Shown in pieces: positions 12,345 to 46,994 of a DNA stretch of 48,854 bases. How positions within the stretch are numbered: the first letter of the stretch is position 1; each line of letters begins with the position of its first letter. This DNA is from a virus: positions 1-48,854 of the IMG/VR virus record IMGVR_UViG_3300032093_000210; one strand, written 5' to 3'. Made by a program: the position numbers and the translations under genes. The notes under the pieces were generated by a model. That model saw nothing but the letters and a program-made list of their open reading frames with translations, had not been told where the DNA came from and searched no databases.

Positions 12345-12396
12345 GGCCCTTCAATTGGCCCCTTTTTCCTTCTAGTGGTCTATAACCCTAGGAGGG
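12345..12396 (+). promoter_or_regulatory. Intergenic module 1 (hairpin, T-tract, box, SD)
   Basis: First copy of the repeated module. A short GGCC/GGCC stem runs into a T-tract, then CTTCTAGTGG, TATAACC and SD AGGAGGG, 4 bases before the ATG at 12400. Confidence 0.7.
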
Positions 12397-12399
12397 TAT

Positions 12400-12537
12400 A
12401 TGAAATCATTAGCTCTAATTATCAGCGTCGTAGTAATTCCTATTATCTTCATGACGGTATTGGCCAGCCAGCTACCAGAACGTGGAGACGGCCAGAATAT
12501 ACCGACTGTGCGTCAGGAGTATATAAACATGAGATAA
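12400..12537 (+). CDS. Tiny membrane protein
   Basis: A 45-residue product beginning MKSLALIISVVVIPIIFMTV: one hydrophobic helix at residues about 4-22 and a short polar tail. The start is fixed by AGGAGGG four bases upstream. It is the first gene of the module array. Unlike the related tiny proteins downstream it lacks the cysteine pair, so it may be a separate type. Function unknown; host-membrane targeting is inferred. Confidence 0.6.
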   Translation: MKSLALIISVVVIPIIFMTVLASQLPERGDGQNIPTVRQEYINMR

Positions 12538-12542
12538 GAAAA

Positions 12543-12596
12543 GGGGTCTGGGCAGGGCCCCTTTTTCTTCTGGTGATCTATAATCTCCAGGAGGAG
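12543..12596 (+). promoter_or_regulatory. Intergenic module 2
   Basis: GGGG (12543-12546) pairs with CCCC (12558-12561); T-tract, CTTCTGGTGATC, TATAAT and SD AGGAGGAG precede the ATG at 12602. Confidence 0.7.
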
Positions 12597-12601
12597 ACAT
12601 T

Positions 12602-12745
12602 ATGAAATCTATCAAAGACGATATACTCGGTTTAATTGTGGCTGCTGCACTCGTGCTCGGCGTGAATGGTCTAATTCTTGGCGCCTTCTACCGGGTTGTC
12701 TGCTACGACTACCCCGCACTGTCAATGTGTAAGACTGATAAATAG
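12602..12745 (+). CDS. Tiny membrane protein, two-cysteine family
   Basis: A 47-residue product with a hydrophobic helix (LIVAAALVLGVNGLILGAF, residues about 11-29) and a C-terminal tail holding two cysteines (VVCYDYPALSMCK). The tail pattern C-Y-(D/G)-x5-6-C recurs in the products at 13616, 13829 and 14613, and in altered form at 19729. The tail could form a disulfide outside the membrane. Module 2 supplies the SD. Function unknown. Confidence 0.6.
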   Translation: MKSIKDDILGLIVAAALVLGVNGLILGAFYRVVCYDYPALSMCKTDK

Positions 12746-12764
12746 GTAGATAAATAATAATTAA

Positions 12765-12814
12765 GGGGCAGCAATGCCCCTTTTTTCTTTCTGTGAACAC
12801 TAGTCCACAGGAGA
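12765..12814 (+). promoter_or_regulatory. Intergenic module 3
   Basis: GGGGCA, loop GCAA, TGCCCC, then TTTTTTCTTTCTGTGAAC and SD AGGAGA before the ATG at 12821. The box is a variant (CTGTGAAC) shared with module 11. Confidence 0.7.
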
Positions 12815-12820
12815 ACACCT

Positions 12821-13165
12821 ATGATGAGTATATATAAACATCTTCCCAGGGAGTATGACTACGCCTATCGTGGTCATACCAACGATCACTTAGATTGGGA
12901 TCGTTGTAGCGAAGTTCTTTATGCCAGCCGCAGTTTGGCAGTGGCCAAGGACTTCGCCCGTGGAGGATACGGGTCAGTCTTCATCCTTGCTTTCGACGGG
13001 AACGTCGAAGCCCACCGCCCCTGGTGGTACGTCGAAGACGACCCAAACTACTACGATGAGGTTGCATTACCAACCAGACGCATAGTCTGGTCTAAGATGG
13101 TAATATTCGGCGGTGAGTTCGTCGTCGAACCAGTAATTAACTGGAACCCAGGTTATATCAAGTAA
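12821..13165 (+). CDS. ADP-ribosyltransferase-like protein
   Basis: A 114-residue protein with the order expected of a small R-S-E type ADP-ribosyltransferase. There is an early Arg in DYAYRGHTN (residues about 13-21), a Ser motif in LYASRSLAVAKDFARGG followed by a hydrophobic strand SVFILAF, and a late acidic strand YDEVALPTRRIV that could hold the catalytic Glu. Phages use such enzymes to modify host RNAP or translation. The motifs are degenerate and no structure check was possible. Single gene between modules 3 and 4. Confidence 0.45.
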   Translation: MMSIYKHLPREYDYAYRGHTNDHLDWDRCSEVLYASRSLAVAKDFARGGYGSVFILAFDGNVEAHRPWWYVEDDPNYYDEVALPTRRIVWSKMVIFGGEFVVEPVINWNPGYIK

Positions 13166-13179
13166 CTTGGGGTAATTTA

Positions 13180-13230
13180 GGGAGTGTAATGCTCCCTTTT
13201 TCTTCTAGTGAACTTTAAACCTTAGAGGAA
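13180..13230 (+). promoter_or_regulatory. Intergenic module 4
   Basis: GGGAG (13180-13184) pairs with CTCCC (13192-13196); T-tract, CTTCTAGTGAAC, then SD GAGGAA five bases from the ATG at 13235. Confidence 0.7.
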
Positions 13231-13234
13231 GATT

Positions 13235-13555
13235 ATGTACGTTCTTAATTCTTTCCCAAACTCCCTTTACCCTACCACGCCGGGTGGGGCTATCACTAGT
13301 ACTTGTATTTCAGAGGAAGAGACCCGCGCTCTCCTCTCCACTACTGAGTGGACAAGTGCTCTCGGACACCTCTCTACGGCGGAGCTCCTCTCCGCCCGTC
13401 TCGGAGTAAACATACCCGTGAATCGGGTACAGGTGCCCTCGGGGGCCGAGTATATTGTATGTTTATTTGTCAGCCCCCGGCGGCTGGCAGAAGGAGAACG
13501 ATGGACGGAGGAGGATATACTCCAGTTCAACATCAACTACATCCTTGTTAAGTAG
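13235..13555 (+). CDS. acrIII-1: AcrIII-1-like viral ring nuclease (DUF1874 family)
   Basis: A 106-residue protein matching the DUF1874 (STIV B116) / AcrIII-1 layout. It starts MYVLNSF, then has SALGHLSTAELLSARLG, then IPVNRVQV, and ends with RRLAEGERWTEEDI. AcrIII-1 cleaves cyclic tetra-adenylate, the second messenger of type III CRISPR, and so blocks that defence. The key residues fit: His45 in the ALGH motif and Arg83 and Glu86 in RRLAEG, with the same spacing as His47, Arg85 and Glu88 that I recall for the characterised enzyme. It is a single gene between modules 4 and 5. Activity is inferred from family knowledge. Confidence 0.8.
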   Translation: MYVLNSFPNSLYPTTPGGAITSTCISEEETRALLSTTEWTSALGHLSTAELLSARLGVNIPVNRVQVPSGAEYIVCLFVSPRRLAEGERWTEEDILQFNINYILVK

Positions 13556-13564
13556 TTGATAGAA

Positions 13565-13611
13565 GGGGCACTGCGCCCCTTTTTCTTCTAGTGAAGTTAA
13601 CTCCTAGGAGG
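13565..13611 (+). promoter_or_regulatory. Intergenic module 5
   Basis: GGGGC, loop ACTGC, GCCCC, then TTTTTCTTCTAGTGAAG and SD AGGAGG before the ATG at 13616. Confidence 0.7.
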
Positions 13612-13615
13612 ATAT

Positions 13616-13759
13616 ATGAAGCTAGATAAGTATGATATAGCATACATTGTATGTATGCTATTCCTAACAATTACTTGCTCCGCCATTGTTGGTGGAGTAG
13701 CCGTGGAATCCTGTTACGGAGACCCGAAGTCTCCACTCTGTGAGGAGGTGAATAAATAA
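13616..13759 (+). CDS. Tiny membrane protein, two-cysteine family
   Basis: A 47-residue product with a hydrophobic helix at residues about 8-30 ending in the glycine motif AIVGG, and a tail with CYGDPKSPLCEE. It is a close paralogue of the 14613 product (same MKL.KYDI start, CSAIVGG core and LCEEVNK end). A disulfide-bonded tail outside the membrane is plausible. Function unknown. Confidence 0.65.
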   Translation: MKLDKYDIAYIVCMLFLTITCSAIVGGVAVESCYGDPKSPLCEEVNK

Positions 13760-13773
13760 TAAATAATAAATAA

Positions 13774-13825
13774 GGGGCCTTGGTAAGGCCCCTTTTCTTT
13801 TAGTGATCTTATAACCCTAGGAGGG
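13774..13825 (+). promoter_or_regulatory. Intergenic module 6
   Basis: GGGGCCT, loop TGGTA, AGGCCCC, then TTTTCTTTTAGTGATC, TATAACC and SD AGGAGGG before the ATG at 13829. Confidence 0.7.
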
Positions 13826-13828
13826 ATT

Positions 13829-13963
13829 ATGAAATACACATTATCTTACATAGCGGCTGTTGCCGTCATCCTTGGCGTATGCGGCGCTATCGTTGGTGGA
13901 GTATACCATGAGGCCTGTTATGGACCTCTACCGTCTTCACTATGTGAGGTAGACAAAGAGTAG
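13829..13963 (+). CDS. Tiny membrane protein, two-cysteine family
   Basis: A 44-residue product: MKYTLSYIAAVAVIL start, GAIVGGV helix end and a tail with CYGPLPSSLCE. It is most like the product at 19729. The gene is flanked by modules 6 and 7. Function unknown. Confidence 0.65.
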   Translation: MKYTLSYIAAVAVILGVCGAIVGGVYHEACYGPLPSSLCEVDKE

Positions 13964-13970
13964 TAGTTAA

Positions 13971-14022
13971 GGGGCCTGGGCGGGGGCCCCTTTTTCCTTC
14001 TAGTGATCTATAATCCTAGGAG
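13971..14022 (+). promoter_or_regulatory. Intergenic module 7
   Basis: GGGGCC (13971-13976) pairs with GGCCCC (13985-13990); then TTTTTCCTTCTAGTGATC, TATAAT and SD AGGAG before the ATG at 14029. This copy is close to the consensus. Confidence 0.7.
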
Positions 14023-14028
14023 TACATC

Positions 14029-14544
14029 ATGAATGGTTTACAGATGGAGAAAGTAGTGTTACGCCTAGTTGAAGAGTTAGGCTTCGAGTGTCCGAAGCCC
14101 CGAGAGATATGGAATACGGGTTATCTGTATAACCAGGCGCGTGATCTCGCGGGTGAACATCTAGAGCTCAACTCCCGAGGCGGTGTCCTTCGTCGTCTCG
14201 TCCCCACTGATGATTGGGGAGTACTAGACCGGGTATACAAGGTGGACGTAATAGTCCGCCAGTATACTGGCGAGCTATGGGCTCTTCAGCTTACTACCGA
14301 CGCCGAGGCAGTAGATAAGAAGCTGGGCCAGTTATGCCGTACCGACAGTCTTCGTTTGGCTGTTGGCATCACCAAGACCTGCTTGGTAGAGATTAAACCC
14401 CCTCAGCCTACCTGGGAGGGGCTCGGTCTGACTAGCCGGGTGGACCGAGATCATCTCGAGGAGTGCCTCTATGGTCTCTTCGAGACAATAGAGAAGAGTG
14501 ATAAACTTCTCTATTACCAGCTAGACTTAAGCTGGTTAAAGTAA
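14029..14544 (+). CDS. Hypothetical protein with possible PD-(D/E)XK-like fold
   Basis: A 171-residue protein. The central strand pair KVDVIVRQYTGELWALQLTTD (residues about 76-96) resembles the D-x(n)-(E/Q)-x-K core of restriction-endonuclease-like folds, with Asp and Gln present but Thr where the Lys is usual, so it may be inactive or a divergent binder. It is a single gene between modules 7 and 8, in the same island as the ring nuclease. I could not assign a family. Confidence 0.5.
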   Translation: MNGLQMEKVVLRLVEELGFECPKPREIWNTGYLYNQARDLAGEHLELNSRGGVLRRLVPTDDWGVLDRVYKVDVIVRQYTGELWALQLTTDAEAVDKKLGQLCRTDSLRLAVGITKTCLVEIKPPQPTWEGLGLTSRVDRDHLEECLYGLFETIEKSDKLLYYQLDLSWLK

Positions 14545-14555
14545 TTTAATTAAAA

Positions 14556-14608
14556 GGGGATATGCTTTATCCCCTTTTTTCTTCTAGTGATCTATTAATC
14601 CTAGGAGG
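14556..14608 (+). promoter_or_regulatory. Intergenic module 8
   Basis: GGGGATA (14556-14562) pairs with TATCCCC (14568-14574), then TTTTTTCTTCTAGTGATC and SD AGGAGG before the ATG at 14613. The stem differs from other modules but is compensated. Confidence 0.7.
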
Positions 14609-14612
14609 AATT

Positions 14613-14756
14613 ATGAAATTAGGTAAGTACGATATCGTCTATATTGTCTCTATCATAATATTAACATTTAGCTGCTCCGCCATTGTTGGCGGAATAGCCG
14701 TAGAGGCCTGTTACGGAGACCTGAAATCTTCACTCTGTGAGGAGGTAAATAAATAA
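14613..14756 (+). CDS. Tiny membrane protein, two-cysteine family
   Basis: A 47-residue paralogue of the 13616 product, with helix IVSIIILTFSCSAIVGGI and tail CYGDLKSSLCEEVNK. The SD of module 8 fixes this start; an upstream in-frame extension would run through the hairpin and is unlikely. Function unknown. Confidence 0.65.
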   Translation: MKLGKYDIVYIVSIIILTFSCSAIVGGIAVEACYGDLKSSLCEEVNK

Positions 14757-14763
14757 TAATTAA

Positions 14764-14814
14764 GGGGTCTTGATAAGGTCCTTTTTTCTTCTGGTGAATT
14801 TTAGTCCCAGGAGG
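14764..14814 (+). promoter_or_regulatory. Intergenic module 9
   Basis: Stem GGGTCTT/AAGGTCC contains two G-U pairs; then TTTTTTCTTCTGGTGAAT and SD AGGAGG before the ATG at 14823. Confidence 0.65.
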
Positions 14815-14822
14815 ACAATTCT

Positions 14823-16793
14823 ATGTCTAAGTTTATCAAATCCGCCAAAACCAAGGCGGCTCGCCTTCAGCTTGCCTACTCCCTTGAGTGGGAGGCACAA
14901 GCTGAGTTAGGAGCTGACCCCGCTCCCTACTATTTCTCTCTTTATAACGTTCTACTTGAGTTCCGGCAGTGGCTGGAACTCAATCCACATACTCCCTGGA
15001 GTGAGTGGGAGGAGTGGAATAGTCTATCCAGCTCCCAGCGCTGGATTATCTCTCGGGTCATCACCCGAGAAGTAAGCTTGGAGGAAGCAAAGGAGGCGCA
15101 CATGGTGCGCCTGCGCCTTATCCGATACCTTCGTTTAAACGAGGGTATCGGACTCTCTTATGAGAAAGAAGGGGTTTGGTTCGAGGAGCTAAGAACTCCT
15201 CAGCTGGCTGAACACTTAGTAGATCTAGGTGTTAAGTACTGGTGGGAGGTCAAGCGCATCCTCCCTCTATGGGAGGATGTCCGCACCCCTGGGCGGGTAT
15301 GGAACTCCGGTTACCAACCGGATCACAGTAAAGTGTTAAGGGTAGCGCTTACCCCAAACTATAACCGCTTACCCATTTGGGTTAAGCGGGTACTGGTTCA
15401 TATGTCTGTTCCCACCCGCATTGGTAACGTATGGGATCTAATCCCAGCTGCGCGGACATGGAAATATAACACAGAGATTCCCAAATCTTTAGCCGTACGG
15501 CTGGGAACTATGTACAAGTCCCGCCCAGACCTCCGAGCCCTTGCTGGGGTCCTCTGGAAAGAGGAGGGGGGACAGTGGGATCGGGCGCGCCGTCGTTCCC
15601 GTACCGAACGCATCGCTGCCTTCTGGCAGCGCTTTAATGAGGTGTGCCACTCGGGGCGCACGGCCATAGCCCAGTACTTATGGCTTAATGGCCACAAGCG
15701 CCTAGCCCTCCGTAAATTGTACGGGGAACTTAGTTGGGCTATTGAGCGCCCTTTGCTCAAAGCCTTTAAAGAGAACGAAGAAACTATATTTGGGGAGGAG
15801 GGGTATATACCCACCCTGAAGGTAGCAGTAGCTAATAAGCTATTGCTACTACGGGAGAATCCTCCAGAGTACCTCGTCCCATTAGTAACAACTTTCGGAA
15901 GCCGCTCTGAGGAGTGGCTCACTAAGATGGCCAAGCTCGGCTACAGCGAGCATGACGCCACTTACTGGCTACCCCTCGGCGGGCAGGGATTGAGCGAGTT
16001 CCTATTCGCACAGGGGGAGCGCCTACGCCAGCGCTCCACCTCATTTTCTGAACTCGGCTTAATATGCCGAGTCTGGCACAAACTGAGCGTGGAGGAGCGC
16101 TCTCTGCCATTCCGTCTACTGGTGACGGTATGTAAGACACGTAAGTACGCAAGTATTAACCACCAGGGGTTTGCCCTGGAGTGCGCCAATTGGGGTGTAT
16201 CTGCGCGGGATTACAACTACTACGAGGGGCGTTTTATACGTTCTCTACAAATACCAGATTTCCTTTCGGGGATTGATGCTACCCGGGATGGAATCCGCGC
16301 CTACTTCCTCCCCCGGGAGGATACGCGAGGGCTCTTCCTCGGTGAATATACTAACTGTTGCCAGCACCCAGACGGGGCTGGGGAAACCTGCGCTTGGTAT
16401 GGGCAAGAAAAGCGCAACTCCGGATTCCTCATATTCGAGGATAATTCAGGAATAATAGCGCAGTCCTGGACCTGGATTAACCAGTCCGGGGATCTGTGCT
16501 TCGATAATTGCGAAGCACTTGGGCTAGGGCAACGAGAGCCCACGGTTATTCTTCTCTACGAAGAGATAGCCCAGAAGATTCTTAAGATGTGGTTCATCAA
16601 AGGGGTGCGCCTCGGAGCAGACGGGTATCTCTATAATGCCTTCGTCAATCGGGTGCTCCTCGGAGCAAACGGGGATCTCTATGGTGCCTTCGACGCATGG
16701 GGCGAGCCACTTAAGGTAGGACGGTCTCTTCTACCAAAAGACTATCAAGATTACACGGATGCTAAGCGCGTCTATGTGATCAGTCATAACTGA
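14823..16793 (+). CDS. Large hypothetical early protein with Cys-rich C-terminal region
   Basis: A 656-residue protein, helical and Trp-rich in its N-terminal 450 residues. The C-terminal part has a conserved-looking block: LGEYTNCCQHPDGAG, C-A-W-Y, GFLIFEDNSGIIAQSWTW, then LCFDNCEALG. The layout (paired Cys, a polar loop, then a strand ending in Q-S-W) recalls PcfJ-like proteins, but the match is weak. Two near repeats, VRLGADGYLYNAF and VLLGANGDLYGAF, occur near the C-terminus. It is the second largest product of the module array. Function unknown. Confidence 0.6.
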   Translation: MSKFIKSAKTKAARLQLAYSLEWEAQAELGADPAPYYFSLYNVLLEFRQWLELNPHTPWSEWEEWNSLSSSQRWIISRVITREVSLEEAKEAHMVRLRLIRYLRLNEGIGLSYEKEGVWFEELRTPQLAEHLVDLGVKYWWEVKRILPLWEDVRTPGRVWNSGYQPDHSKVLRVALTPNYNRLPIWVKRVLVHMSVPTRIGNVWDLIPAARTWKYNTEIPKSLAVRLGTMYKSRPDLRALAGVLWKEEGGQWDRARRRSRTERIAAFWQRFNEVCHSGRTAIAQYLWLNGHKRLALRKLYGELSWAIERPLLKAFKENEETIFGEEGYIPTLKVAVANKLLLLRENPPEYLVPLVTTFGSRSEEWLTKMAKLGYSEHDATYWLPLGGQGLSEFLFAQGERLRQRSTSFSELGLICRVWHKLSVEERSLPFRLLVTVCKTRKYASINHQGFALECANWGVSARDYNYYEGRFIRSLQIPDFLSGIDATRDGIRAYFLPREDTRGLFLGEYTNCCQHPDGAGETCAWYGQEKRNSGFLIFEDNSGIIAQSWTWINQSGDLCFDNCEALGLGQREPTVILLYEEIAQKILKMWFIKGVRLGADGYLYNAFVNRVLLGANGDLYGAFDAWGEPLKVGRSLLPKDYQDYTDAKRVYVISHN

Positions 16794-16920
16794 TCAACAA
16801 CGCCGCCCCGCTCCTGTTATTGATCTTGCGGCGTAAAGCCACGAGATGGAACAGGTAAGGCAGGAAATAGAGAAGCTCCGCCGTGAGTGAGCGGAGCTGA
16901 ATAAGTAGAGTAGGTAAGGA
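16794..16920 (+). other. Intergenic stretch with hairpin and relic-like mini-ORF
   Basis: CGCCGC (16801-16806) pairs with GCGGCG (16828-16833). A 14-codon frame at 16846-16890 (MEQVRQEIEKLRRE) ends at a TGA and would continue AELNK, as if a short coiled-coil gene had been interrupted. There is no SD for it. CTCCGC/GCGGAG forms another small stem at 16876-16896. Confidence 0.3.
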
Positions 16921-16968
16921 GGGGCCCGAGGCCCCTTTTTTCTTTCATGAACTTATCTCCAAGGAGGA
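16921..16968 (+). promoter_or_regulatory. Intergenic module 10
   Basis: GGGGCC, loop CGA, GGCCCC, then TTTTTTCTTTCATGAACTT and SD AAGGAGG before the ATG at 16973. The box is a variant (CATGAAC). Confidence 0.65.
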
Positions 16969-16972
16969 GACT

Positions 16973-17812
16973 ATGAAATCTATCAAGCTGGCTGGCTATA
17001 CATTCCGCTTCGTCAAATTAGACGAGTCTATAGGCATTAAAGTAGGAGCTGATTACTTATACCGTGTAGAATACTACACAGCATCAGCCTGCCAAGAACG
17101 TGCCATCGCTACCTTGGAAGAGGTAGTGGAAATAATAGACGGAGGGACTCATCCCTCTAAGGGGTACTACGAGGACATTCCGTCGGTAGATTGCTCTTAC
17201 ACTCGTCAGAAGTGGACTCCTGCATTGTTACGCATTCCCGTCCGCGTACGTCGTTGGCGGGACCAAAATGGGCTTGTCACTTCTCCTCTAGATGAAGCGG
17301 CTCGTCTAGAAGCCCGGTGCATCTACCTCTCTAACGGAGAGGTAGAGGTAGACATGACGCACCTAGTAGTAGAATGCCCTACTACTACGGAGCACTATGA
17401 GTGGCGTGAGGAGGAGGCCGCCGCTTACTACCGCGATATTATCGAGCGTGAGGTTATACCCGACTATCTACGCTGGGTAGAAGAGAAAACAGACAAAAAG
17501 CAAAAGGAAGAGGATAAGGCACAGGCGGAGGAAGCGTATCTTGCGTCTCCTGAGCACGCTAAACAAATGGCGGGCTACCAACCCGTCATTGACTTCCTTA
17601 ACAAGAAGTCTTTTGACCTTAAGAAGATTGGAGAGAATGAGGCTCTCCGTTCACTTCTCAAATCAGGAGCCGTGGCATCTGCCGTCTATCGTTGGGGTGA
17701 ATATTACCTAGCGGTAGATGGCAACCCCAAATGTCAGCTCAAGTACCTCATGCAATTGATCGAGCGACTGGGGTATCGGGCTAAGGCCAAGCCCGTGCTT
17801 CGTAAGAAATAG
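16973..17812 (+). CDS. Hypothetical early protein
   Basis: A 279-residue protein. The N-terminal ~150 residues look beta-rich; residues about 165-200 are a charged helix (EEKTDKKQKEEDKAQAEEAY) likely to be coiled coil; the C-terminal 90 residues form a small basic domain. No named domain recognised. Module 10 lies upstream and the decayed module 11 downstream. Confidence 0.6.
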   Translation: MKSIKLAGYTFRFVKLDESIGIKVGADYLYRVEYYTASACQERAIATLEEVVEIIDGGTHPSKGYYEDIPSVDCSYTRQKWTPALLRIPVRVRRWRDQNGLVTSPLDEAARLEARCIYLSNGEVEVDMTHLVVECPTTTEHYEWREEEAAAYYRDIIEREVIPDYLRWVEEKTDKKQKEEDKAQAEEAYLASPEHAKQMAGYQPVIDFLNKKSFDLKKIGENEALRSLLKSGAVASAVYRWGEYYLAVDGNPKCQLKYLMQLIERLGYRAKAKPVLRKK

Positions 17813-17820
17813 ATAACAGA

Positions 17821-17868
17821 GGGACAGCAATGCACCTTTTTTCCTTCCTGTGAACACTAGTCCAAGAG
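17821..17868 (+). promoter_or_regulatory. Intergenic module 11 (decayed copy)
   Basis: The sequence is nearly module 3 (GGGACAGCAATGCACC, T-tract, CTGTGAACACTAGTCC) but the hairpin has mismatches and the SD is reduced to AAGAGAA. It shows modules duplicate and then decay. Confidence 0.6.
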
Positions 17869-17876
17869 AACAGCTC

Positions 17877-18173
17877 ATGTTAAACTGCACCACTAATGTC
17901 ACCGTAGCTGCTCGTGCTACTGCTGCTTACAATTACGAGTCTAGTGTGGCTCGTCAGAGCTGGGGTAGCCAGCATCGTGGTGGGACGGTGGTACGTAGTA
18001 GCCGTCACGTCTTCTACGGTCCTGGTGAGCCTGACAATGCTCGTTGGGATGCGGGCTTCTGGGGAGGTGGCTCCTTCCACCAAAGCTATAACCAGTCTAA
18101 ACGTTGGCGTCGTTATCACGGCAAGGCGTTACGCCAAGCAGCTAAGAAGGCTGGACGTTGCCGTGGGGTGTAG
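17877..18173 (+). CDS. Small basic hypothetical protein
   Basis: A 98-residue basic protein rich in Arg, Gly, Ser and Trp. I start it at the ATG at 17877, downstream of module 11; an in-frame codon at 17850 lies inside the module and is unlikely. The C-terminus (RWRRYHGKALRQAAKKAGRCRG) suggests nucleic-acid or membrane-surface binding. Function unknown. The weak SD leaves expression uncertain. Confidence 0.5.
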   Translation: MLNCTTNVTVAARATAAYNYESSVARQSWGSQHRGGTVVRSSRHVFYGPGEPDNARWDAGFWGGGSFHQSYNQSKRWRRYHGKALRQAAKKAGRCRGV

Positions 18174-18188
18174 GTAGTTAATTAGTAA

Positions 18189-18241
18189 GGGGAGCATATA
18201 GCTCCCCTTTTTCCTTTTAGTGACCTTTACTCTAGAAGGAG
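18189..18241 (+). promoter_or_regulatory. Intergenic module 12
   Basis: GGGGAGC, loop ATATA, GCTCCCC, then T-tract, CTTTTAGTGACC and SD AAGGAG before the ATG at 18249. Confidence 0.7.
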
Positions 18242-18248
18242 TATTATC

Positions 18249-18401
18249 ATGTGCCCATATCAAACCTATCTGCACATTATCAACCATACCACTATCCAGT
18301 TACGTACAGTTGATGGTCCTGCGTGTCACATAGACCTGGATGGTCACCGCTGGTACGTTCTACCAGATGGTGACTTCGAGGTCATCACTCTAATAGACTA
18401 A
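18249..18401 (+). CDS. 50-residue protein, MCPY family (copy 1)
   Basis: A 50-residue product starting MCPYQTYLHI with the block VDGPACHIDLDGHRWYV and end GDFEVITLID. A second copy lies at 19410 with about three quarters identity, showing that the frame is conserved and real. The two Cys and two His residues could bind metal. Function unknown. Confidence 0.65.
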   Translation: MCPYQTYLHIINHTTIQLRTVDGPACHIDLDGHRWYVLPDGDFEVITLID

Positions 18402-18407
18402 CACTAT

Positions 18408-18460
18408 GGGGAGCTATATGCTCCCCTTTTTCCTTCTGGTGATTCATTAGTCCCAGGAGA
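18408..18460 (+). promoter_or_regulatory. Intergenic module 13
   Basis: GGGGAGC, loop TATAT, GCTCCCC, T-tract, CTTCTGGTGATT and SD AGGAGA before the ATG at 18465. Confidence 0.7.
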
Positions 18461-18464
18461 GCAT

Positions 18465-18701
18465 ATGTACAAAATCCTAGCGGCGTCAATCTACGCCGCA
18501 CTACAGGCGGCGGGCGTCTACGTCCACCCAACGACGTGGGCATTCATCTCGTATTATTTCATGGGCGGTCCTCAGCCCCCGACTCTATCTGAAGCCGACA
18601 TCGCTAAGACACGCGATGCGGTAATACGAAACTTCAAGGCTCGTCTTAACGAAGAAGAAATCACCTCTCTCGCTGCTTCCGGAGGGCACGACAACTGGTA
18701 G
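18465..18701 (+). CDS. Hypothetical protein, possibly read through an in-frame TAG
   Basis: A 78-residue product that ends at TAG (18699-18701). The same frame stays open after the stop to 19202 and the sequence just after the stop reads like protein (SSLAGAIGNFNYRILAVGPD). No module, SD or terminator separates the two halves, unlike nearly every other gene boundary here. Either a 245-residue gene has been split by a point mutation or the TAG is partly suppressed. Function of either half is unknown. Confidence 0.5.
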   Translation: MYKILAASIYAALQAAGVYVHPTTWAFISYYFMGGPQPPTLSEADIAKTRDAVIRNFKARLNEEEITSLAASGGHDNW

Positions 18702-19202
18702 TCTTCTTTAGCCGGGGCCATCGGTAACTTCAACTACCGCATTCTGGCGGTAGGTCCCGACACCATCAAGGTGGAGTGTCGTGACACGTGGAACTTCAAT
18801 CCCAACTCCTATAACATGAAGCTACCTTGCCCGCCTCGTCTAGCGGGTATCCTATCTTCTCTGGCCAAGAAGGTAGGTATAGAGGTCTCCTACAATGGAG
18901 GAGAGATAATCGTCTGTGAAGAGCAGCTGGTCAAGCTCAATCCTGGCCGTGCCTTCACGACCGTATGGAAAGTAGAGATACCCACAGCGGAAGTAATTCC
19001 TGAGTGGGCTACTTACTGGGAGGTGGCTACCTGGGATGAGGGTAACTATGCATTCATCCGACCTCTCAAGTATGTATCCCTACCCCTCTGCCGCTACCAG
19101 CGGGGTGAAGGAGTCTATGTTGAACGGAACTACCATTCCGACATTGATTACGTGTCGATGTTAGAGGCGGGTTGGGCTCCCTCTGTAGATTTACCTGAAT
19201 AA
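18702..19202 (+). CDS. Downstream half of the TAG-interrupted gene
   Basis: The open frame following the TAG encodes about 166 residues; the first possible internal start is a GTG at 18771, which lacks a Shine-Dalgarno sequence. The segment contains PCPPRLAGILSSLAKKVGIEV and a Trp-rich region, with no family recognised. Without its own module it would be translated only by readthrough or weak initiation. Confidence 0.45.
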   Translation, partial: SSLAGAIGNFNYRILAVGPDTIKVECRDTWNFNPNSYNMKLPCPPRLAGILSSLAKKVGIEVSYNGGEIIVCEEQLVKLNPGRAFTTVWKVEIPTAEVIPEWATYWEVATWDEGNYAFIRPLKYVSLPLCRYQRGEGVYVERNYHSDIDYVSMLEAGWAPSVDLPE

Positions 19203-19208
19203 TATTAG

Positions 19209-19246
19209 GGGGCTGCTAACCACAGCCCCTTTTTTCTTCTAGTGAC
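19209..19246 (+). promoter_or_regulatory. Intergenic module 14 (no SD)
   Basis: GGGGCTG (19209-19215) pairs with CAGCCCC (19223-19229), then TTTTTTCTTCTAGTGAC. The SD part of the module is missing here. Confidence 0.65.
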
Positions 19247-19262
19247 AACCTGCCTCGCTCTA

Positions 19263-19331
19263 ATGATGGAGGCTCGCGCTCTTTCCCATCAAGTGGAAGA
19301 GGAGGGGCACGCTCTCTTGCGTAGTCTGTAG
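19263..19331 (+). CDS. Possible 22-residue remnant peptide
   Basis: A 22-codon frame (MMEARALSHQVEEEGHALLRSL) between modules 14 and 15. There is no SD, so this is more likely the remains of a deleted cassette than an active gene. Confidence 0.2.
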   Translation: MMEARALSHQVEEEGHALLRSL

Positions 19332-19347
19332 CTAGTCGTGTAGTTAA

Positions 19348-19403
19348 GGGGCTGTTGGGTGGGCGGCCCCTTTTCTTTCTAGTGAACATTTACTCTAGGA
19401 GGT
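19348..19403 (+). promoter_or_regulatory. Intergenic module 15
   Basis: GGGGC (19348-19352) pairs with GCCCC (19366-19370), then CTTTCTAGTGAAC and SD AGGAGGT before the ATG at 19410. Confidence 0.7.
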
Positions 19404-19409
19404 AAATCT

Positions 19410-19562
19410 ATGTGCCCTTATCACACTTATCTTCACGTGTTGAATCGTTTGACGATTCAACGTCGGTCTGTAGATGGTCCAGCGTGTCATCTAGACCTTG
19501 ATGGTCATCGCTGGTACGTTGTACCAGATGGTGATTTAGAGATTATTACTCTAATAGACTAA
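19410..19562 (+). CDS. 50-residue protein, MCPY family (copy 2)
   Basis: Paralogue of the 18249 gene: same length, MCPYHTYLH start, VDGPACHLDLDGHRWYV core and EIITLID end. Differences are spread along the protein and the frame is intact, so selection for protein function is likely. Function unknown. Confidence 0.65.
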   Translation: MCPYHTYLHVLNRLTIQRRSVDGPACHLDLDGHRWYVVPDGDLEIITLID

Positions 19563-19568
19563 TGCTAT

Positions 19569-19608
19569 GGGCCCGCCTCTATCTTGAATAAGAAACAGAG
19601 ACGGGCCC
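19569..19608. terminator. Long hairpin after MCPY copy 2
   Basis: GGGCCCG (19569-19575) pairs with CGGGCCC (19602-19608), extended by CTCT/AGAG. There is no T-tract. It is followed by about 65 nt without a gene. Confidence 0.4.
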
Positions 19609-19675
19609 TCGTTTCTAAATGATAGCGTGTTAAAGAAAAGATAAATGAAGCTCAACGCCTTAGTTCGTTAAGTGC

Positions 19676-19723
19676 GCCAACAATTGGCCCCTTTTTCTTC
19701 TAGTGATCTATTAATCCTAGGAG
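19676..19723 (+). promoter_or_regulatory. Intergenic module 16
   Basis: An unrelated stem GCCAA, loop CAA, TTGGC leads into CCCCTTTTTCTTCTAGTGATC and SD AGGAG before the ATG at 19729. The box is conserved although the stem sequence is not. Confidence 0.65.
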
Positions 19724-19728
19724 AGATT

Positions 19729-19863
19729 ATGAAATATACACTAGCTTACATAATTTCTGTTGTGGTAATTCTTGCCACTAATGCCGCTATCGTTGGTGGG
19801 GTATACGTAGGCATTTGTCATGGGGACTCCCCCGTGACGGCGTGCGAGATAGGTAAAGAGTAG
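19729..19863 (+). CDS. Tiny membrane protein, two-cysteine family (divergent)
   Basis: A 44-residue product, MKYTLAYIISVVVILATN start, AAIVGGV helix end and tail ICHGDSPVTACEIGKE. It is close to the 13829 product but has His instead of Tyr after the first Cys. Preceded by module 16. Function unknown. Confidence 0.65.
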   Translation: MKYTLAYIISVVVILATNAAIVGGVYVGICHGDSPVTACEIGKE

Positions 19864-19870
19864 TAGTTAA

Positions 19871-19905
19871 GGGGCCTGAGCGGGGGCCCCTTTTCTTTTA
19901 GTAGT
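19871..19905 (+). promoter_or_regulatory. Intergenic module 17 (no SD)
   Basis: GGGGCC (19871-19876) pairs with GGCCCC (19885-19890), then TTTTCTTTTAGTAG. The following sequence lacks a clear SD before the ATG at 19928. Confidence 0.6.
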
Positions 19906-19927
19906 TTTATACACCCAAGTATACACA

Positions 19928-20674
19928 ATGAGAAACAACAACAATCAAGCCTCTAACTCCTCTAACTCCTCTAACCCTTCTAACCCCACCAACTCTACTG
20001 TGAAAAACTACGTATTTACTCTTAACGTAAGCAAGAGTGTCAACACTAAACCTGGCATTCTTGCTTACGTGCACAATGGCGCTATCAAACGCCGCTTGGA
20101 TCTATCTAGCTACTGGCTAGAATTCCGGCTGATATCCAATAAGAACGGGGAGGTACCTCTCACTACCTCCGATGGCCGTAGCTTATCTACGTCCAAGTTT
20201 GTAGAGCGTCTGACCGGAGACGCCAGCGATGATATTATTATGTCTGTAGAGTTATCTACAGATTTCGAAGACGACTGGGAAAGCTCATCATGTGGAAGTG
20301 TAAAAGTTAGCTTCAACGCAGAAGACCTCTGCGTTGGACGCGAAACAGAATACAAGGGCACAATAACCCAGTACTTTCACCTTGAAGGTGCGGAGATACA
20401 ACTTCATCGGGAAGTCATGCGCCCGAAGATAGACCCGTCTATACTGGACGGGTTTGAGGGGACGGCAAAATCTAACGTGGTAACTGTGGAACAATTACAT
20501 AGTAAAGCGGCCGCCCGCAAACGCAAACGGGAGGCTGCTGCAACAGCTCGTGCAACTGCCGCAGCCGCAGCAGCAACAGAAGCAGCCGCAGCAGCAACAG
20601 CAGAAGCTACAACAGAAGCAGCCGCAGGTACTGTTGATAAAACACGTGCAGATATAAACGGTCTACTTGACTAA
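19928..20674 (+). CDS. Hypothetical protein with low-complexity ends
   Basis: A 248-residue protein. The N-terminus is a Ser/Asn/Pro repeat (NNNNQASNSSNSSNPSNP); residues about 25-175 look like a beta-rich globular domain; the C-terminal ~55 residues are a basic stretch (ARKRKRE) followed by an Ala/Thr/Glu helix. This resembles a DNA- or surface-associated protein with flexible tails. It directly precedes the second polymerase-like gene and may be made with it. Function unknown. Confidence 0.55.
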   Translation: MRNNNNQASNSSNSSNPSNPTNSTVKNYVFTLNVSKSVNTKPGILAYVHNGAIKRRLDLSSYWLEFRLISNKNGEVPLTTSDGRSLSTSKFVERLTGDASDDIIMSVELSTDFEDDWESSSCGSVKVSFNAEDLCVGRETEYKGTITQYFHLEGAEIQLHREVMRPKIDPSILDGFEGTAKSNVVTVEQLHSKAAARKRKREAAATARATAAAAAATEAAAAATAEATTEAAAGTVDKTRADINGLLD

Positions 20675-20681
20675 GTAAAAA

Positions 20682-20735
20682 GGGCCCTGCTTGGGCCCCT
20701 TTTTCTTTTAGTGGTTCTACATTACTAGTAATACC
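20682..20735 (+). promoter_or_regulatory. Intergenic module 18
   Basis: GGGCCC, loop TGCTT, GGGCCC, T-tract, CTTTTAGTGGTT, then a TTACTAGTAA palindrome just before the ATG at 20736. There is no strong SD. Confidence 0.65.
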
Positions 20736-23700
20736 ATGAATGTCAACTTTGTCTTCTTCCAATCTTTTGTAGCCTCTATCAGCGCCGCTATCGCAGGTAC
20801 TCGCACTACTGCACGACGCGTAGGCCCTGGGCGCCGTGCCCAGCAGATAGCGAGCCGTCGCGCTAATCGCGTAGTACGCCGTCGCTCTCGTCGTATAGCG
20901 TCAGCCGGCCGCCCTATACGCTCCTTACCTCAAAGCCAACGCCCCTGCGTTGTAAAATCAGCACGGCGTGCGCTACGTCGTGCCGCAGCTGCCGCAGCCT
21001 CAGCCGCCCGCAAACACGTGTTACGCGGCCGTAACGTCGTAGACAAACTTGTCTTACAACAACGTAAGGCCAAACCTATACTGCGCGCTGTCAGTGCATT
21101 ATTTACGCGTCCCTCGCGCCCCGCGCGTCCTACTAGCACCGGCACCGGCGCTAAAGCCGTTGCTACCGTAGTTAATAATGCTGCTGGTAGTATTATCGCT
21201 GCTCTTAATCAAGGCCGCGTAAACTACCGCGGCAACGGCCGCACTTGTGTGGGCAAGAAGTACAAAACTAAAAACGATAAAACGGCTTTATCTACCGCTA
21301 AAGCTGCTAAAGCTGCCAATAAAGCAGCACGCGTTAAACGTTGTGTGAGCGTTGTAATGCCAGAATTACCAAGTGACGTACCGGCTATCCGCATGATAGC
21401 CATAGGCAAACTATGCGGTGTCACCTTCGTACAAGGGAGCATAGCATCTTATTGTAATGGTGTCATCACTATACCCGACTACAACAATTTATACACAGTG
21501 ACTCATGAGCTTGTTCACCACTGCCAAGCTCTAGGTCTTACTGAAGACCTAGAGTTTGGCGCTGTATCCAAAGCCGCCATGAAGGCTGGCTTCGCTCAAT
21601 GGCATGCCACTAAATCGTTCTACGAGGGTACTGAACACGAGAACGACGAGTACGAAGCAGCCCTGCTTATGTACGACCCGGCGTTAGTGGCCCGCCTCTT
21701 ATGCACCCACTACCTCATGGCCGCGTTTGTAGAAAGCGGAGCACCTGGTCCTGATGATACATGGATGGATGTAGTAGACAGTTTAGATCCTGCGATTTGT
21801 CGTGAAGTCGTAGGTCTCGATGATCGTGTACTCGGTTATAAGACCTATGGCGAATATGCTGAAGCCGTTGGATATGATGACACTAATACGTTATTAGACT
21901 GGGAATTCGTCTTTAACAATAGTGTCAACAACGATGATGCTGTTGCGCTAACCATTCAAGCAATTGATGGTCTTATTGGTGCGGCGCCCGCAGCAGTAAC
22001 TCCTACCCGCCCGCTCTCTAACACAGGAGCCCCTACTAAGGGGTTAGAGAGTGATAGCTCCTCTACCAATACCACCAATGACCCTAGTACTATGAAAAGC
22101 ATTATCGAGATGTTAATTCCTGACCCTAGTACTCTCGGTGGAGTCGTGTCTCCTAAGCAGGAGGCGCGCATCACGACAGCTCGTAAAGAGCTAGCCCGCT
22201 TGTTTGGGGCTAATAACTTCGACCTTCTGCCTGAAGGTCCGATTCTCTATGTCGTGTCTCCTAACAGCCGTATGTCTAAGAAGTTCCTTGCGCTTCTAGA
22301 CCACCGTGTTGTTTACACCACAGACTCTAAGATGAATCCTAAGGTCATTAACTTAGGTGTGACTAAGTCTATTCCCTACGAAGCCGACAAGCATACCTAT
22401 GCTACTAAGACCGAATGCTTAGTTAACATGTATAGTGAGCACTTCCTCACTAAGTTAGCTACGTGGTCTGGTGATGACCTGGCCGCTCTCGTAGGCTGTC
22501 TGTGTGTCAAGCAGCACCGTATTGTTAGTGTTGAGGGCCCCTGTGTTGTCATCAAGGGTAATAACCGCAGCACTACTTTCAACTTTAGTACAGGTACCGT
22601 CAATGATGGTCGTCAGCGTCGCATCGCTAATGAACTCGTCAAAGTCGGAGGCAAGGACTACAGTGGTCGTGTAGTCCTTGTGGCACTCTGTATGAAGGTA
22701 GCGTATAACGCCACTGGTGCGCGTGCTATCCTCAACGAGATAACCAACCTGTGGCGCGAGGACATCAACTACGGCGCTCAGCCTAAAGAGGGCCAATCTC
22801 TGTTTGAGATTAATCGCGGTATGAGTCGTCCTATCGTGTTCAAGCCTTGGGATAAGGCCTTCCCCTTCCTGCAAGTAGAGAACACTAATCTTGCTCCCAG
22901 CGATCTCGAATTGTCGCTCAAGGCCGGCATCATAGCAGCACCTGATAAGTACAATACAAAGTGGATCGCTGTAGGTAAGGGCGCCAAGGCCATGTTCCTT
23001 GGGCTTAAGGATGGTAAGATATACTCCATCCATGACTTCAGCAAGCCCACTAAGGTGTACAACCGTCCGCCTAGCTCGGGTAAATACACCCGTGCTGAGA
23101 TCATAGATCGTCGTGATAGCCTACTTCGCGTTGATTTAGGTGATGGCGGCTATAGTTGTGGTGGTGGCCTCTATCTACGCACTGCATTCACCAATAGTCG
23201 CTTTGGCTTTGGCAGCGGTGTTGCTGCTATACGTCGCGACCTCGAGTTCGAATACACCGTACCGAAGACCATTACTAAGGAGTTTCACGTACTCCGTATT
23301 CCTAGCTCAGTTCGCGCTCTTATGGCTGCTGATCTAGATGACCCCACGAGTAAGCTCATAGAAGTCATAGAAGGTAAGATAGCGAAGGCAGAGGGCCAGG
23401 TTTATGCTCCTGGTAACCCTATCATCAGTATTATGCAGGGCAAGTACTGCATTGTCAAGAACGAGACGTTCGCGCAGGACATCCGCGTAATAGGCGGGAC
23501 TGTCACGCGTAATGGCGTCGAGGGCCGCGCTGATAGCGTCACCATTCGACTTGAGACTGAAATGGTAGGGCGCGACCAGGTCCTCAAACTCCGCGGTCTA
23601 GGGAAGAAGCTTACCACTCTTCCCTATGACGTTAAAGGATTATCTCAACCCTGGGATATCATCCTGAATAACGAGACCACCAAGGGATGGCCCGCACTCA

Positions 23701-25817
23701 TAGAGATGTTTGCCATTGAGAAGGGGGGCTGCACCTATACTCCCGAAGGTGCGCTTCTCACCATCGATGATACTGGTAAAGTCATTGATCTCATGGCTAA
23801 GACTAATGCCTTTACTGAGTGGGCTCGAGCCAACAGTGTTAAAGAGGTCATCTCCTTTGATATGGCCCGCGACCTGTGGGATTCCATCTCGTCTGTAGTC
23901 GCTAACGATGATATCAATGTAATCGATATAGACGATACCAGCGTCCGTATCGAAGAGACCGTCGAAGTTATATACGGCTATCTGCCGTACGATATCGAGA
24001 TAGCTACTCCTCGTGAGTCCGTAGCATTCTCCAAGATGACTATGGAGCAGATCGGTATTGTGGCTCTACAGAACCGCGCTTGGGGCGAAGCGCTCATGAA
24101 GGAAGTTAAGTACGATAACGTTATGTCCATAGTTAGCATGATCACATCTAAAGACTGTGCTGCTTGTGTTAACATCAGCACTACTAAAGGGCGTGACCAT
24201 CTACGGGGCATTATCGGTGTAGTTAACGACTACGTTTCTGATAGCACCCCCGGCAGTGACCGCGAGCTGCTAGGCCGTTTTGCTACCGCCTACCCCAATG
24301 GAGTGGATATCGTTGCCCAGAACAACGGCAATGAAGTCTCTCTTCATATCAATGGTAAGGCCTTGAGTGCATTCGGTACCTTCTCTGGCGCCTCCGCTAC
24401 TGGCATTATGTTAGACCTTCTAACTCTGCTGGCTTACGTTACTGATGTAGGGATTGAAGACCAGAGTGGTTTGGATAGTAAAATCTACTCTATGACTGCT
24501 AAGGTCAGCCGTGGTTTACGCACATGGTGTAACACTATGGTTAAATCCCAGGGCATTCTGAAAAGTATAGCCCGCGCCGGCAATGTGGTCGTTGGTAAGG
24601 TCAAGACGAGCTATAGCCCACTGCTTCATAGCGCTGATGGCGTGCCTGTAATTCTCATGCACCCCGATTGCCCTATGGTGCGTATGCTTGGCGTTGAAGA
24701 GGGCCAGGTTATTGGGGTACAACGTACTCCTATGGGTTTCATCCTATGTGGCCGCGTCAAGTTCTCTACTACTGATGCCTTCGTCGCACACTATACGGTC
24801 AACCCCCTCCTATGGCACGCCGTTAACGAAGGTGATGCTGATGGTGATCAGTGCGGCGGCATTAATGCTCACAAGTATGGTATTAACGCTAAGAGTGCCC
24901 TCACTATCAATGCTAGTCTCATGGGCATGGGCGGCTACTTCTACTGCTACGAAGCAGATGACCTGCCGTTCTTCGCCTTCATGAGCTATGAAGATAAGAT
25001 GGGCAAGAAATCCCTCACTAAATGGGATAAGGCTGTAGCTACTGCTATCGCTGTCAATAAGTACGTCAGCGACGCTGCTGAGGTGCATATGCACTACAAA
25101 GGGGCCGTAGGTGCTGGCTATGGTATCTGTTCCGCACTTGCCTTCCAGGCATGGGATAGTATGTACCGCGCTAGCGGCGTCGATACCGACGCACTCAAGG
25201 CGTGTGTTATAGCTTGGCGTTTCGTCTATGAAAACATGGGTCTCGGGGGCTATACCCCTGAGGCTAAGATCTTCATGGCGACCTTAGTACAGGCAGCCCG
25301 CGCCTGGGCTGCTGGCGTACCTATGTATAAGTCGGCGCAAGACAGGTTATACTACTCTGCCAACTCTACTAAGCTTGCGGATACGGATCGCCAAGGAAGT
25401 GGTGTACCTCCTGCTCAGGCTATGGCTGGCCTTATGCCTGCTAAACTAGCTAAGGAGCCCGCGGTAATCTACCAGCTTATAAAGGCTCGTGCCCGTACTC
25501 TCACATACGGTGCTCTCGAACGGGGCAACTTCACTCGCGAGGGCCTTATCATGTCGTCTGCCATATACGGAGCCTTCCGTCGTACTGGCCAGGGCTATGA
25601 TCCTGTGGCTCCTATGACCCAGGATGACGCAGCTAGTTATGGCGCTGATGAGATCGTTCCAGTTAGTGTGTTCCAAATGGTAAGTGAGTTCCAACTCTCT
25701 AATCATGTCAGGAACCCCCAGCTCAAGCAGCTGTTGGAAATCGCAACTGCTGTACATCTCGACCTCGGCGACTACAAACTAGAGCTCGCTGAAGCTGAAG
25801 ATCATCCTGATTTCTAA
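20736..25817 (+). CDS. Single-chain RNA polymerase-like protein with basic N-terminus and zincin motif
   Basis: A 1,693-residue protein. Residues about 20-205 are extremely Arg/Lys/Ala-rich. Residues 256-262 read THELVHH, an HExxH zincin motif, with acidic residues 30-45 further on that could complete a metal site. Residues about 946-985 (GRDQVLKLRGLGKKL, then a WDIILN strand) resemble the beta-subunit GDK..GR.G.KG and DIVLNP segments. Residues 1367-1371 are D-A-D-G-D in NEGDADGDQCGG, matching the beta' NADFDGDQ active-site motif, preceded by an EEGQVIGVQR strand as in beta'. The beta-then-beta' order in one chain is known from YonO-like and crAss-like phage polymerases. It closes the module array. 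Polymerase identity is likely; a peptidase role is speculative. Confidence 0.7.
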   Translation: MNVNFVFFQSFVASISAAIAGTRTTARRVGPGRRAQQIASRRANRVVRRRSRRIASAGRPIRSLPQSQRPCVVKSARRALRRAAAAAASAARKHVLRGRNVVDKLVLQQRKAKPILRAVSALFTRPSRPARPTSTGTGAKAVATVVNNAAGSIIAALNQGRVNYRGNGRTCVGKKYKTKNDKTALSTAKAAKAANKAARVKRCVSVVMPELPSDVPAIRMIAIGKLCGVTFVQGSIASYCNGVITIPDYNNLYTVTHELVHHCQALGLTEDLEFGAVSKAAMKAGFAQWHATKSFYEGTEHENDEYEAALLMYDPALVARLLCTHYLMAAFVESGAPGPDDTWMDVVDSLDPAICREVVGLDDRVLGYKTYGEYAEAVGYDDTNTLLDWEFVFNNSVNNDDAVALTIQAIDGLIGAAPAAVTPTRPLSNTGAPTKGLESDSSSTNTTNDPSTMKSIIEMLIPDPSTLGGVVSPKQEARITTARKELARLFGANNFDLLPEGPILYVVSPNSRMSKKFLALLDHRVVYTTDSKMNPKVINLGVTKSIPYEADKHTYATKTECLVNMYSEHFLTKLATWSGDDLAALVGCLCVKQHRIVSVEGPCVVIKGNNRSTTFNFSTGTVNDGRQRRIANELVKVGGKDYSGRVVLVALCMKVAYNATGARAILNEITNLWREDINYGAQPKEGQSLFEINRGMSRPIVFKPWDKAFPFLQVENTNLAPSDLELSLKAGIIAAPDKYNTKWIAVGKGAKAMFLGLKDGKIYSIHDFSKPTKVYNRPPSSGKYTRAEIIDRRDSLLRVDLGDGGYSCGGGLYLRTAFTNSRFGFGSGVAAIRRDLEFEYTVPKTITKEFHVLRIPSSVRALMAADLDDPTSKLIEVIEGKIAKAEGQVYAPGNPIISIMQGKYCIVKNETFAQDIRVIGGTVTRNGVEGRADSVTIRLETEMVGRDQVLKLRGLGKKLTTLPYDVKGLSQPWDIILNNETTKGWPALIEMFAIEKGGCTYTPEGALLTIDDTGKVIDLMAKTNAFTEWARANSVKEVISFDMARDLWDSISSVVANDDINVIDIDDTSVRIEETVEVIYGYLPYDIEIATPRESVAFSKMTMEQIGIVALQNRAWGEALMKEVKYDNVMSIVSMITSKDCAACVNISTTKGRDHLRGIIGVVNDYVSDSTPGSDRELLGRFATAYPNGVDIVAQNNGNEVSLHINGKALSAFGTFSGASATGIMLDLLTLLAYVTDVGIEDQSGLDSKIYSMTAKVSRGLRTWCNTMVKSQGILKSIARAGNVVVGKVKTSYSPLLHSADGVPVILMHPDCPMVRMLGVEEGQVIGVQRTPMGFILCGRVKFSTTDAFVAHYTVNPLLWHAVNEGDADGDQCGGINAHKYGINAKSALTINASLMGMGGYFYCYEADDLPFFAFMSYEDKMGKKSLTKWDKAVATAIAVNKYVSDAAEVHMHYKGAVGAGYGICSALAFQAWDSMYRASGVDTDALKACVIAWRFVYENMGLGGYTPEAKIFMATLVQAARAWAAGVPMYKSAQDRLYYSANSTKLADTDRQGSGVPPAQAMAGLMPAKLAKEPAVIYQLIKARARTLTYGALERGNFTREGLIMSSAIYGAFRRTGQGYDPVAPMTQDDAASYGADEIVPVSVFQMVSEFQLSNHVRNPQLKQLLEIATAVHLDLGDYKLELAEAEDHPDF

Positions 25818-25824
25818 TTACAAT

Positions 25825-25873
25825 GGGGTCATATGACCCCTGGGGGCCACCTGGCCCCTTTTTCTTTTAGTGG
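25825..25873 (+). terminator. Double terminator plus module 19 after the polymerase gene
   Basis: GGGGTCATATGACCCC (25825-25840) is a perfect palindrome. It is followed by GGGGCC, loop ACCT, GGCCCC (25843-25858), a T-tract and CTTTTAGTGG. This is the last copy of the module and has no long gene after it. Confidence 0.65.
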
Positions 25874-36223: not shown

Positions 36224-36296
36224 GCAGAATTGGCCGATTGGTATAGGCACCGTCCTCATAAGACGGCTTAAAGTGGTTCGATTCCGCTATTCTGCA
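36224..36296 (+). tRNA. tRNA with CAT anticodon (Ile2 or Met), copy 1
   Basis: A 73-nt cloverleaf: acceptor GCAGAAT/ATTCTGC, D-arm with GGCC and GGC, anticodon stem CCGTC/GACGG with loop CTCATAA, variable CTTAA, T-arm AGTGG-TTCGATT-CCGCT, discriminator A. No CCA is encoded. The anticodon CAT could be elongator Met or an Ile2 tRNA (lysidine-modified) reading ATA. Heavy ATA use in the phage genes favours Ile2. Confidence 0.85.
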
Positions 36297-43840: not shown

Positions 43841-44401
43841 ATGACAATTAAAATTGAAATGGTAGAGGTACCACCAAGTCAGGATCAAAAAATCAGTAGT
43901 TTTGCGATTGGTAAATATCCAGTGACTCAGGAACAATATGAAGCAGTAATGGGAACCAATCCCTCTTGGTTTCAAGACAATCCTCAAAATCCAGTGGAAA
44001 GTGTAAGTTGGAACAATGCCCAAGTTTTTTGTCAGAAATTGAGTGAAATGACCGGCAAAACTTATCGCTTACCGACAGAAGCGGAATGGGAGTATGCTTG
44101 CCGTGCGGGAACTGATACTGTCTATTATTTTGGTAATGATGCTAATCAATTAGGAGATTACGCTTGGTATTGGGGAAATTCTCAGGAAACAACCCATCCT
44201 GTAGGGCAAAAATTACCTAATGCTTGGGGACTCTATGATATGCACGGCAATATTGAGGAGTGGTGCCAAGAAGTTGTGCTGCGGGGCGGTTCCTGGGCCG
44301 ACTTTCCTAATAACTGCCGTACCGCGATTCGCGACTTCTTTAACGTCCGCCGCAACGACAACTTCAACGCTTACGGTTTTCGGGTAGTTTGTGATAATTA
44401 G
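43841..44401 (+). CDS. DGR target: FGE-sulfatase-fold protein A
   Basis: A 186-residue protein of the FGE-sulfatase (C-type-lectin-like) fold: IGKYPVTQEQYEAVMG, NPVESVSW, YRLPTEAEWEYACRAGT, HPVGQKLPNAWGLYDM and a C-terminal LRGGSW block. Such lectin-fold proteins are the usual targets of diversity-generating retroelements. The 3' ~107 nt (44282-44388) are GC-rich and differ from paralogues at almost every NNY codon. CTAGGAGTAAG precedes the ATG. I infer a binding rather than enzymatic role. Confidence 0.8.
   Translation: MTIKIEMVEVPPSQDQKISSFAIGKYPVTQEQYEAVMGTNPSWFQDNPQNPVESVSWNNAQVFCQKLSEMTGKTYRLPTEAEWEYACRAGTDTVYYFGNDANQLGDYAWYWGNSQETTHPVGQKLPNAWGLYDMHGNIEEWCQEVVLRGGSWADFPNNCRTAIRDFFNVRRNDNFNAYGFRVVCDN
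44282..44388 (+). repeat. DGR variable region 1
   Basis: From CGGGGCGGT to GGTTTTCGGGTAGT. Variable codons read GCC GAC TTT AAT AAC ... ATT ... GAC TTC TTT AAC GTC, all ending in C or T, as expected if AAY codons of a template were randomised at the A positions. Confidence 0.75.
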
Positions 44402-44445
44402 TTACTAATCAATTATTTATCAGTTATATCTTAGGAGTAAAAATA

Positions 44446-45003: not shown

Positions 45004-45032
45004 TCAATTATTAGTTATCAGCAGTAAAAATA

Positions 45033-45323: not shown

Positions 45324-45384
45324 TTATCTTTTAGCGTCAGTTGGTTATTAGTTATCAGTAAAAACAAAGCTAGGAGTAAAAATG

Positions 45385-46155: not shown

Positions 46156-46226
46156 GATGATTAGGGTAGGGCCCCTCCCAAAAAGTTAGCTATCAGTTGT
46201 TAAAATAAAGCACTTAGGAGTAAGAA

Positions 46227-46934: not shown

Positions 46935-46994
46935 CTCTGCGTTCGCTTGGCTATCAGCTATTAGTTGTCAACTAACAATTATTTAGAAGCAAAA

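Follow-up and report, generated by a model that had tools for sequence, protein, structure and literature searches.

A DUF1874-family gene of Microcystis phages, a predicted AcrIII-1-type ring nuclease, lies between repeated terminator-leader elements

Introduction

Most of the known viral ring nucleases come from archaeal viruses of hot springs, and a few from bacterial phages. The H47A variant of AcrIII-1 from SIRV1 (gp29) still binds cyclic tetra-adenylate (cA4) but has no activity; AcrIII-1 itself outpaces the cellular ring nuclease Crn1 about 60-fold (PMC7213978). The corresponding mutant of Crn2, H495A, is dead (PMC7293037). In a survey, AcrIII-1 is the commonest phage ring nuclease and occurs in 36 of 28,114 phage genomes, among which MaMV-DH01 may be counted; the same study describes Csx16 as itself a cA4 ring nuclease, structurally like Crn2 (PMC12409355). 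In the literature searched, DUF1874 was never mentioned together with cyanophages, and anti-CRISPR is not mentioned in the paper describing MaMV-DH01.

Microcystis aeruginosa FACHB-524, the host of MaMV isolates, carries two type I and three type III-B systems (PMC11855584). Csx1 is found in one of the type III-B systems and a CARF protein in two, cluster 4 comprising Csx1, Uma2 and a CARF protein and cluster 5 comprising Uma2 and a CARF protein; spacers of both clusters match MaMV phage genes, and Csx1 raised protection against T4 in an E. coli reconstruction of the FACHB-524 system (PMC11855584). MaMV-DC infects FACHB-524, a strain with matching type III-B spacers (PMC11855584).

Results

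A Fukuivirus fragment carries an intact DUF1874-family gene

The stretch of viral DNA analysed here, hereafter the window, comprises 48,854 bases and is 87-88% identical to the Microcystis phages MaMV-DH01, CH01, CH02, DL01, DL02 and DC over 20-41.9 kb, from which we identify it as a Fukuivirus fragment and so as part of a Microcystis myovirus. Judged from these relatives, the host of the virus is very probably Microcystis. The cyanobacterial setting proposed in the initial annotation was right and is narrowed to Microcystis, a genus in which three type III-B systems are described for strain FACHB-524 (PMC11855584). Features around the gene under study are collected in Table 1.

Table 1. Features of the accessory region of the window
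Feature	Position	Strand	Remarks
Terminator-leader elements across array (hairpin, CCCTTTTTTCTTCTAGTGA, Shine-Dalgarno, ATG)	12360-25873	+	Sense strand only
Module missing from contig L102	12770..13778	.	114-aa ORF, ring nuclease and 47-aa ORF
114-aa ORF, phrog_35503	12821..13165	+	Conserved in Fukuivirus; PHROG match, synteny
Intercistronic element before ring nuclease	13178..13229	+	Repeat families D1/D3/D4, terminator scan, motif matches
DUF1874 / AcrIII-1-family ring nuclease gene	13235..13555	+	106 aa; predicted catalytic and binding residues H45, R83, E86
Next element copy	13561..13612	+	Closes ring-nuclease unit, leads into small ORF at 13616
Small hydrophobic ORF, 47 aa	13616..13759	+	Family repeated along array
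Second small hydrophobic ORF, 44 aa	13829..13963	+	Same family as 13616 ORF
171-aa ORF, phrog_28304	14029..14544	+	In all Fukuivirus compared

The initial annotation had read an AcrIII-1-type ring nuclease here from an MYVLNS start, ALGHLSTAELLS, IPVNRVQV and RRLAEGERW, and from His45, Arg83 and Glu86 spaced as His47, Arg85 and Glu88 of the known enzyme. Its placement of the ORF proved exact: all of these motifs are present in a frame running from ATG to TAG, the three residues stand at the positions given, and an ungapped HMMER alignment pairs them with 47, 85 and 88 of the 2x4i chain. The ATG is preceded at a distance of 5 nt by AGAGGA (13224-13229), a near-consensus Shine-Dalgarno sequence. 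Most orthologues start with ATG CTT TAC (MLYVLNS), and the allele of the window, like that of L008, is without the initial leucine. Pairwise dN/dS between the gene of the window and its Fukuivirus orthologues ranges from 0.13 to 0.39, indicating that the gene is intact and under purifying selection.

The protein belongs to the AcrIII-1 family by profile and by fold

A hmmscan against Pfam matched residues 2-101 to PF08960 (STIV_B116-like, formerly DUF1874) with 47.3 bits and E 2.3e-12, above the curated cut-off of 26 bits, and phrog_5063 was matched in the PHROG collection (E 3.5e-15), so that chance similarity is very far from sufficient to explain the matches. Among solved structures, a single-sequence search ranked AFV3-109 (2j6b) best with E 1e-12, followed by 2x4i (SIRV1 ORF114a), 2j85 (STIV B116) and 6scf (the AcrIII-1 entry); we take 2x4i and 6scf to be the same SIRV1 protein, which is consistent with the residue numbering. 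In an alignment of 24 viral homologues, ranging from Acidianus and Hydrogenobaculum viruses through to bacterial phages, N5, S41, G44, H45, T48, R64, R83, E86 and G87 are invariant. Each of these 24 proteins matched PF08960 and nothing else. The Csx16 profile (PADLOC PDLC01147) also matched the protein of the window, more weakly, at 33.5 bits and E 1.3e-8 against the 47.3 bits of PF08960, in a library that is not directly comparable with Pfam. No NCBIfam profile matched the protein, nor did anything in a plasmid search, and two genome-contig pattern scans, whose patterns reach only close relatives, returned no cellular relative. The nearest relative outside Fukuivirus, 45% identical, is encoded at L028:573-932 on a 54-kb IMG/VR contig; its neighbours include a P-loop ATPase-like ORF, and this contig is perhaps plasmid-like rather than phage.

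The AlphaFold2 model built from the 24-homologue alignment, as a monomer, has a mean pLDDT of 91.5. All 16 Foldseek matches with E <= 0.001 were members of the DUF1874 family. VIA-align gave Z values of 12.7 to 2j6b, 12.4 to 2x4i, 12.3 to 6scf and 11.1 to 8y7g, the H495A mutant of Csx1-Crn2 with cA4, with an identity in structural alignment to the proteins of solved structure of only 18-30%. The model has the AcrIII-1 fold, and the family reading of the initial annotation is supported by profile, fold and invariant catalytic and binding residues alike. The gene product is a member of the AcrIII-1 family, a family already known, and by sequence and fold we favour its assignment to DUF1874 over Csx16.

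AcrIII-1 of SIRV1 shares with the protein its fold, length, H-R-E spacing and viral location at about 18-20% sequence identity, but SIRV1 is a hot-spring archaeal virus while the gene of the window belongs to a mesophilic cyanophage. AFV3-109 is the best match among solved structures in both sequence (about 30-34% identity) and fold; unlike the protein of the window, it is an archaeal lipothrixvirus protein. Crn2, as in Csx1-Crn2 of Marinitoga (8y6z, 8y7f, 8y7g), has the same domain family, the same fold and the same kind of catalytic histidine (PMC7293037), but it is cellular, fused to Csx1 and located in a CRISPR locus. The gene studied here is stand-alone, virus-encoded and outside any CRISPR locus, with phage genes on both sides, which separates AcrIII-1 from Crn2. 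The closest counterparts are the orthologues of MaMV-CH01, CH02, DL01, DL02 and DH01, 85% identical and in the same genomic place, which are annotated as hypothetical protein only and have the initial leucine that is absent from the allele of the window.

The gene is bounded by a repeated terminator-leader element

The element before the ring nuclease consists, in order, of a terminator-like hairpin (13179-13197), a T run, CTTCTAGTGA (to 13211), an AT-rich stretch and the Shine-Dalgarno sequence. Nearly every gene from 12.36 to 20.7 kb, a stretch of about 8 kb, is preceded by a copy. Counted with at most 3 mismatches, the CTTCTAGTGA core motif occurs 15 times in the window, always on the plus strand, against 0.03 expected. 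Six Fukuivirus isolate genomes contain 5-13 matches each, none of them on the opposite strand or outside the equivalent region, and the reversed control pattern gave zero matches. An Rfam scan of the window found a tRNA alone, hence the element corresponds to no catalogued RNA. TATAAT-like stretches inside the element were considered as a promoter; the -10-like box lies right against the Shine-Dalgarno sequence and the copies vary, and we make no such claim.

Contig L102 (16,970 bases) is identical to the window over about 17 kb apart from the loss of 1,009 bp and one junction base. It corresponds to window positions 30291-13759 joined to 12769-12316, so that window position 12769 meets 13779, and its single mismatch falls within the 20-base junction overlap. 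The crossover maps to the 8 identical nucleotides TAAGGGGC that two copies of the element share. Contig L092 has the same sequence as the end of L102. Because the junction is 454 bases from the contig end, a chimeric assembly of L102 is possible.

Presence and absence of the gene among sister phages

The ring nuclease gene is present in five MaMV isolates (CH01, CH02, DL01, DL02 and DH01). Ma-LMM01 and MaMV-DC have none, neither at the matching locus nor genome-wide: in the alignment, their flanking genes are kept and the leader element runs straight into a small ORF. With the phrog_28304 gene as an anchor to score presence or absence, the ring nuclease was found in 8 of the 10 IMG/VR contigs having this neighbour, L092 and L101 being without it. 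With a copy of the repeated terminator-leader element on either side, the gene travels as one unit, and recombination between elements probably explains its absence from some sister phages. More broadly, the ring nuclease may be one removable unit of a plug-and-play accessory array, in which inter-element recombination would add, remove or reorder host-takeover genes, anti-CRISPR included, within a single viral population; this wider picture is a tentative one, to which we give slightly less than even weight.

Phages differ in gene order near the ring nuclease: in L003 and L004, the 656-aa gene stands where the 114-aa gene stands elsewhere. Two tandem 48-nt repeats, 83% identical, are found at 16593-16688 (plus strand) of the window, inside the 656-aa ORF. 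By eye, the 114-aa ORF resembles an ADP-ribosyltransferase (YRG, an S-rich stretch, DEV); Pfam and PDB profile searches returned nothing useful, its structure model (pLDDT 34.6) neither supports nor excludes this likeness, and we make no claim for it. The family of small hydrophobic ORFs (44-47 aa) has, besides the two in Table 1, members at 12602-12745, at 14613-14756 and from 19729 onward, and their number varies between phages.

Discussion

Sequence, modelled fold and analogy with the studied enzymes together make it highly probable that the protein is a phage AcrIII-1-family ring nuclease switching off type III-B cA4 signalling in Microcystis. On this reading, type III-B complexes of Microcystis would recognise phage RNA and make cA4, which would turn on Csx1 and CARF effectors. 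The phage protein would act as a dimer, holding cA4 in a pocket with R83 and E86 and using H45 for catalysis, and would cleave it into linear di-adenylate that bears a 2',3'-cyclic phosphate (A2>P); with the loss of cA4, the effectors would be switched off and infection could continue. By analogy with the family, the protein very probably cleaves cA4 and inhibits CRISPR; that it forms a dimer, when it acts and how the phage benefits are likewise inferred.

Phages are known to use sponges, and the protein could conceivably be one, or a slow enzyme, binding and sequestering cA4 tightly with little turnover. Sponge action has been raised for the CRISPR protein Csx15 (PMC12409355). However, no homologue departs from the catalytic histidine or the Arg/Glu pair, and the studied relatives having these residues are fast enzymes (PMC7213978, PMC7293037), which makes sequestration improbable. 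We hold it equally improbable that the ring nuclease acts on the signal of another system, such as CBASS or another cyclic oligonucleotide, rather than on type III cA4: Microcystis does have many defence systems (PMC5780444), but those members of the family that have been characterised act on cA4 and are linked to type III CRISPR, and the sister phages infect a host whose type III-B systems contain spacers against them (PMC11855584).

Several RefSeq entries of archaeal viral relatives bear the name 'DNA binding protein', which would suit a DNA-binding or other protein that has merely retained the DUF1874 fold. It is, however, the cA4 site to which the conserved residues belong, and structures with bound cA4 are matched by the fold; of the readings weighed here, this one is the most remote.

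Given the type III-B systems of FACHB-524, a cA4-degrading enzyme would be a plausible asset for its phages. MaMV-DC, however, does not have the gene yet infects FACHB-524, so that the gene is not strictly needed on that host; its benefit would be conditional, or MaMV-DC would have another countermeasure. The existence of sister phages with and without the gene offers a natural plus/minus comparison, by which its value to the phage is directly testable, and an E. coli reconstruction of the host system is already published. The carriers are lytic phages of a toxic bloom-former, among them several cultured isolates that infect a single strain in which three type III-B systems are present, and two sister isolates are without the gene. 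What adds interest over the known family is this natural contrast between isolates together with the removable-unit setting, and the removable-unit arrangement provides a route to further unrecognised anti-defence genes nearby.

Other features of the window

A tRNA gene lies at 36224-36296 on the plus strand (Rfam RF00005, 54.1 bits), and a tRNA-Met is annotated in the equivalent region of Ma-LMM01. At 43841-48504, on the same strand, at least five tandem paralogues with variable C-terminal ends resemble by eye formylglycine-generating-enzyme or C-type-lectin-like proteins. The two that were tested match phrog_18508, named 'kinase', and DNA related to these paralogues occurs in other Fukuivirus.
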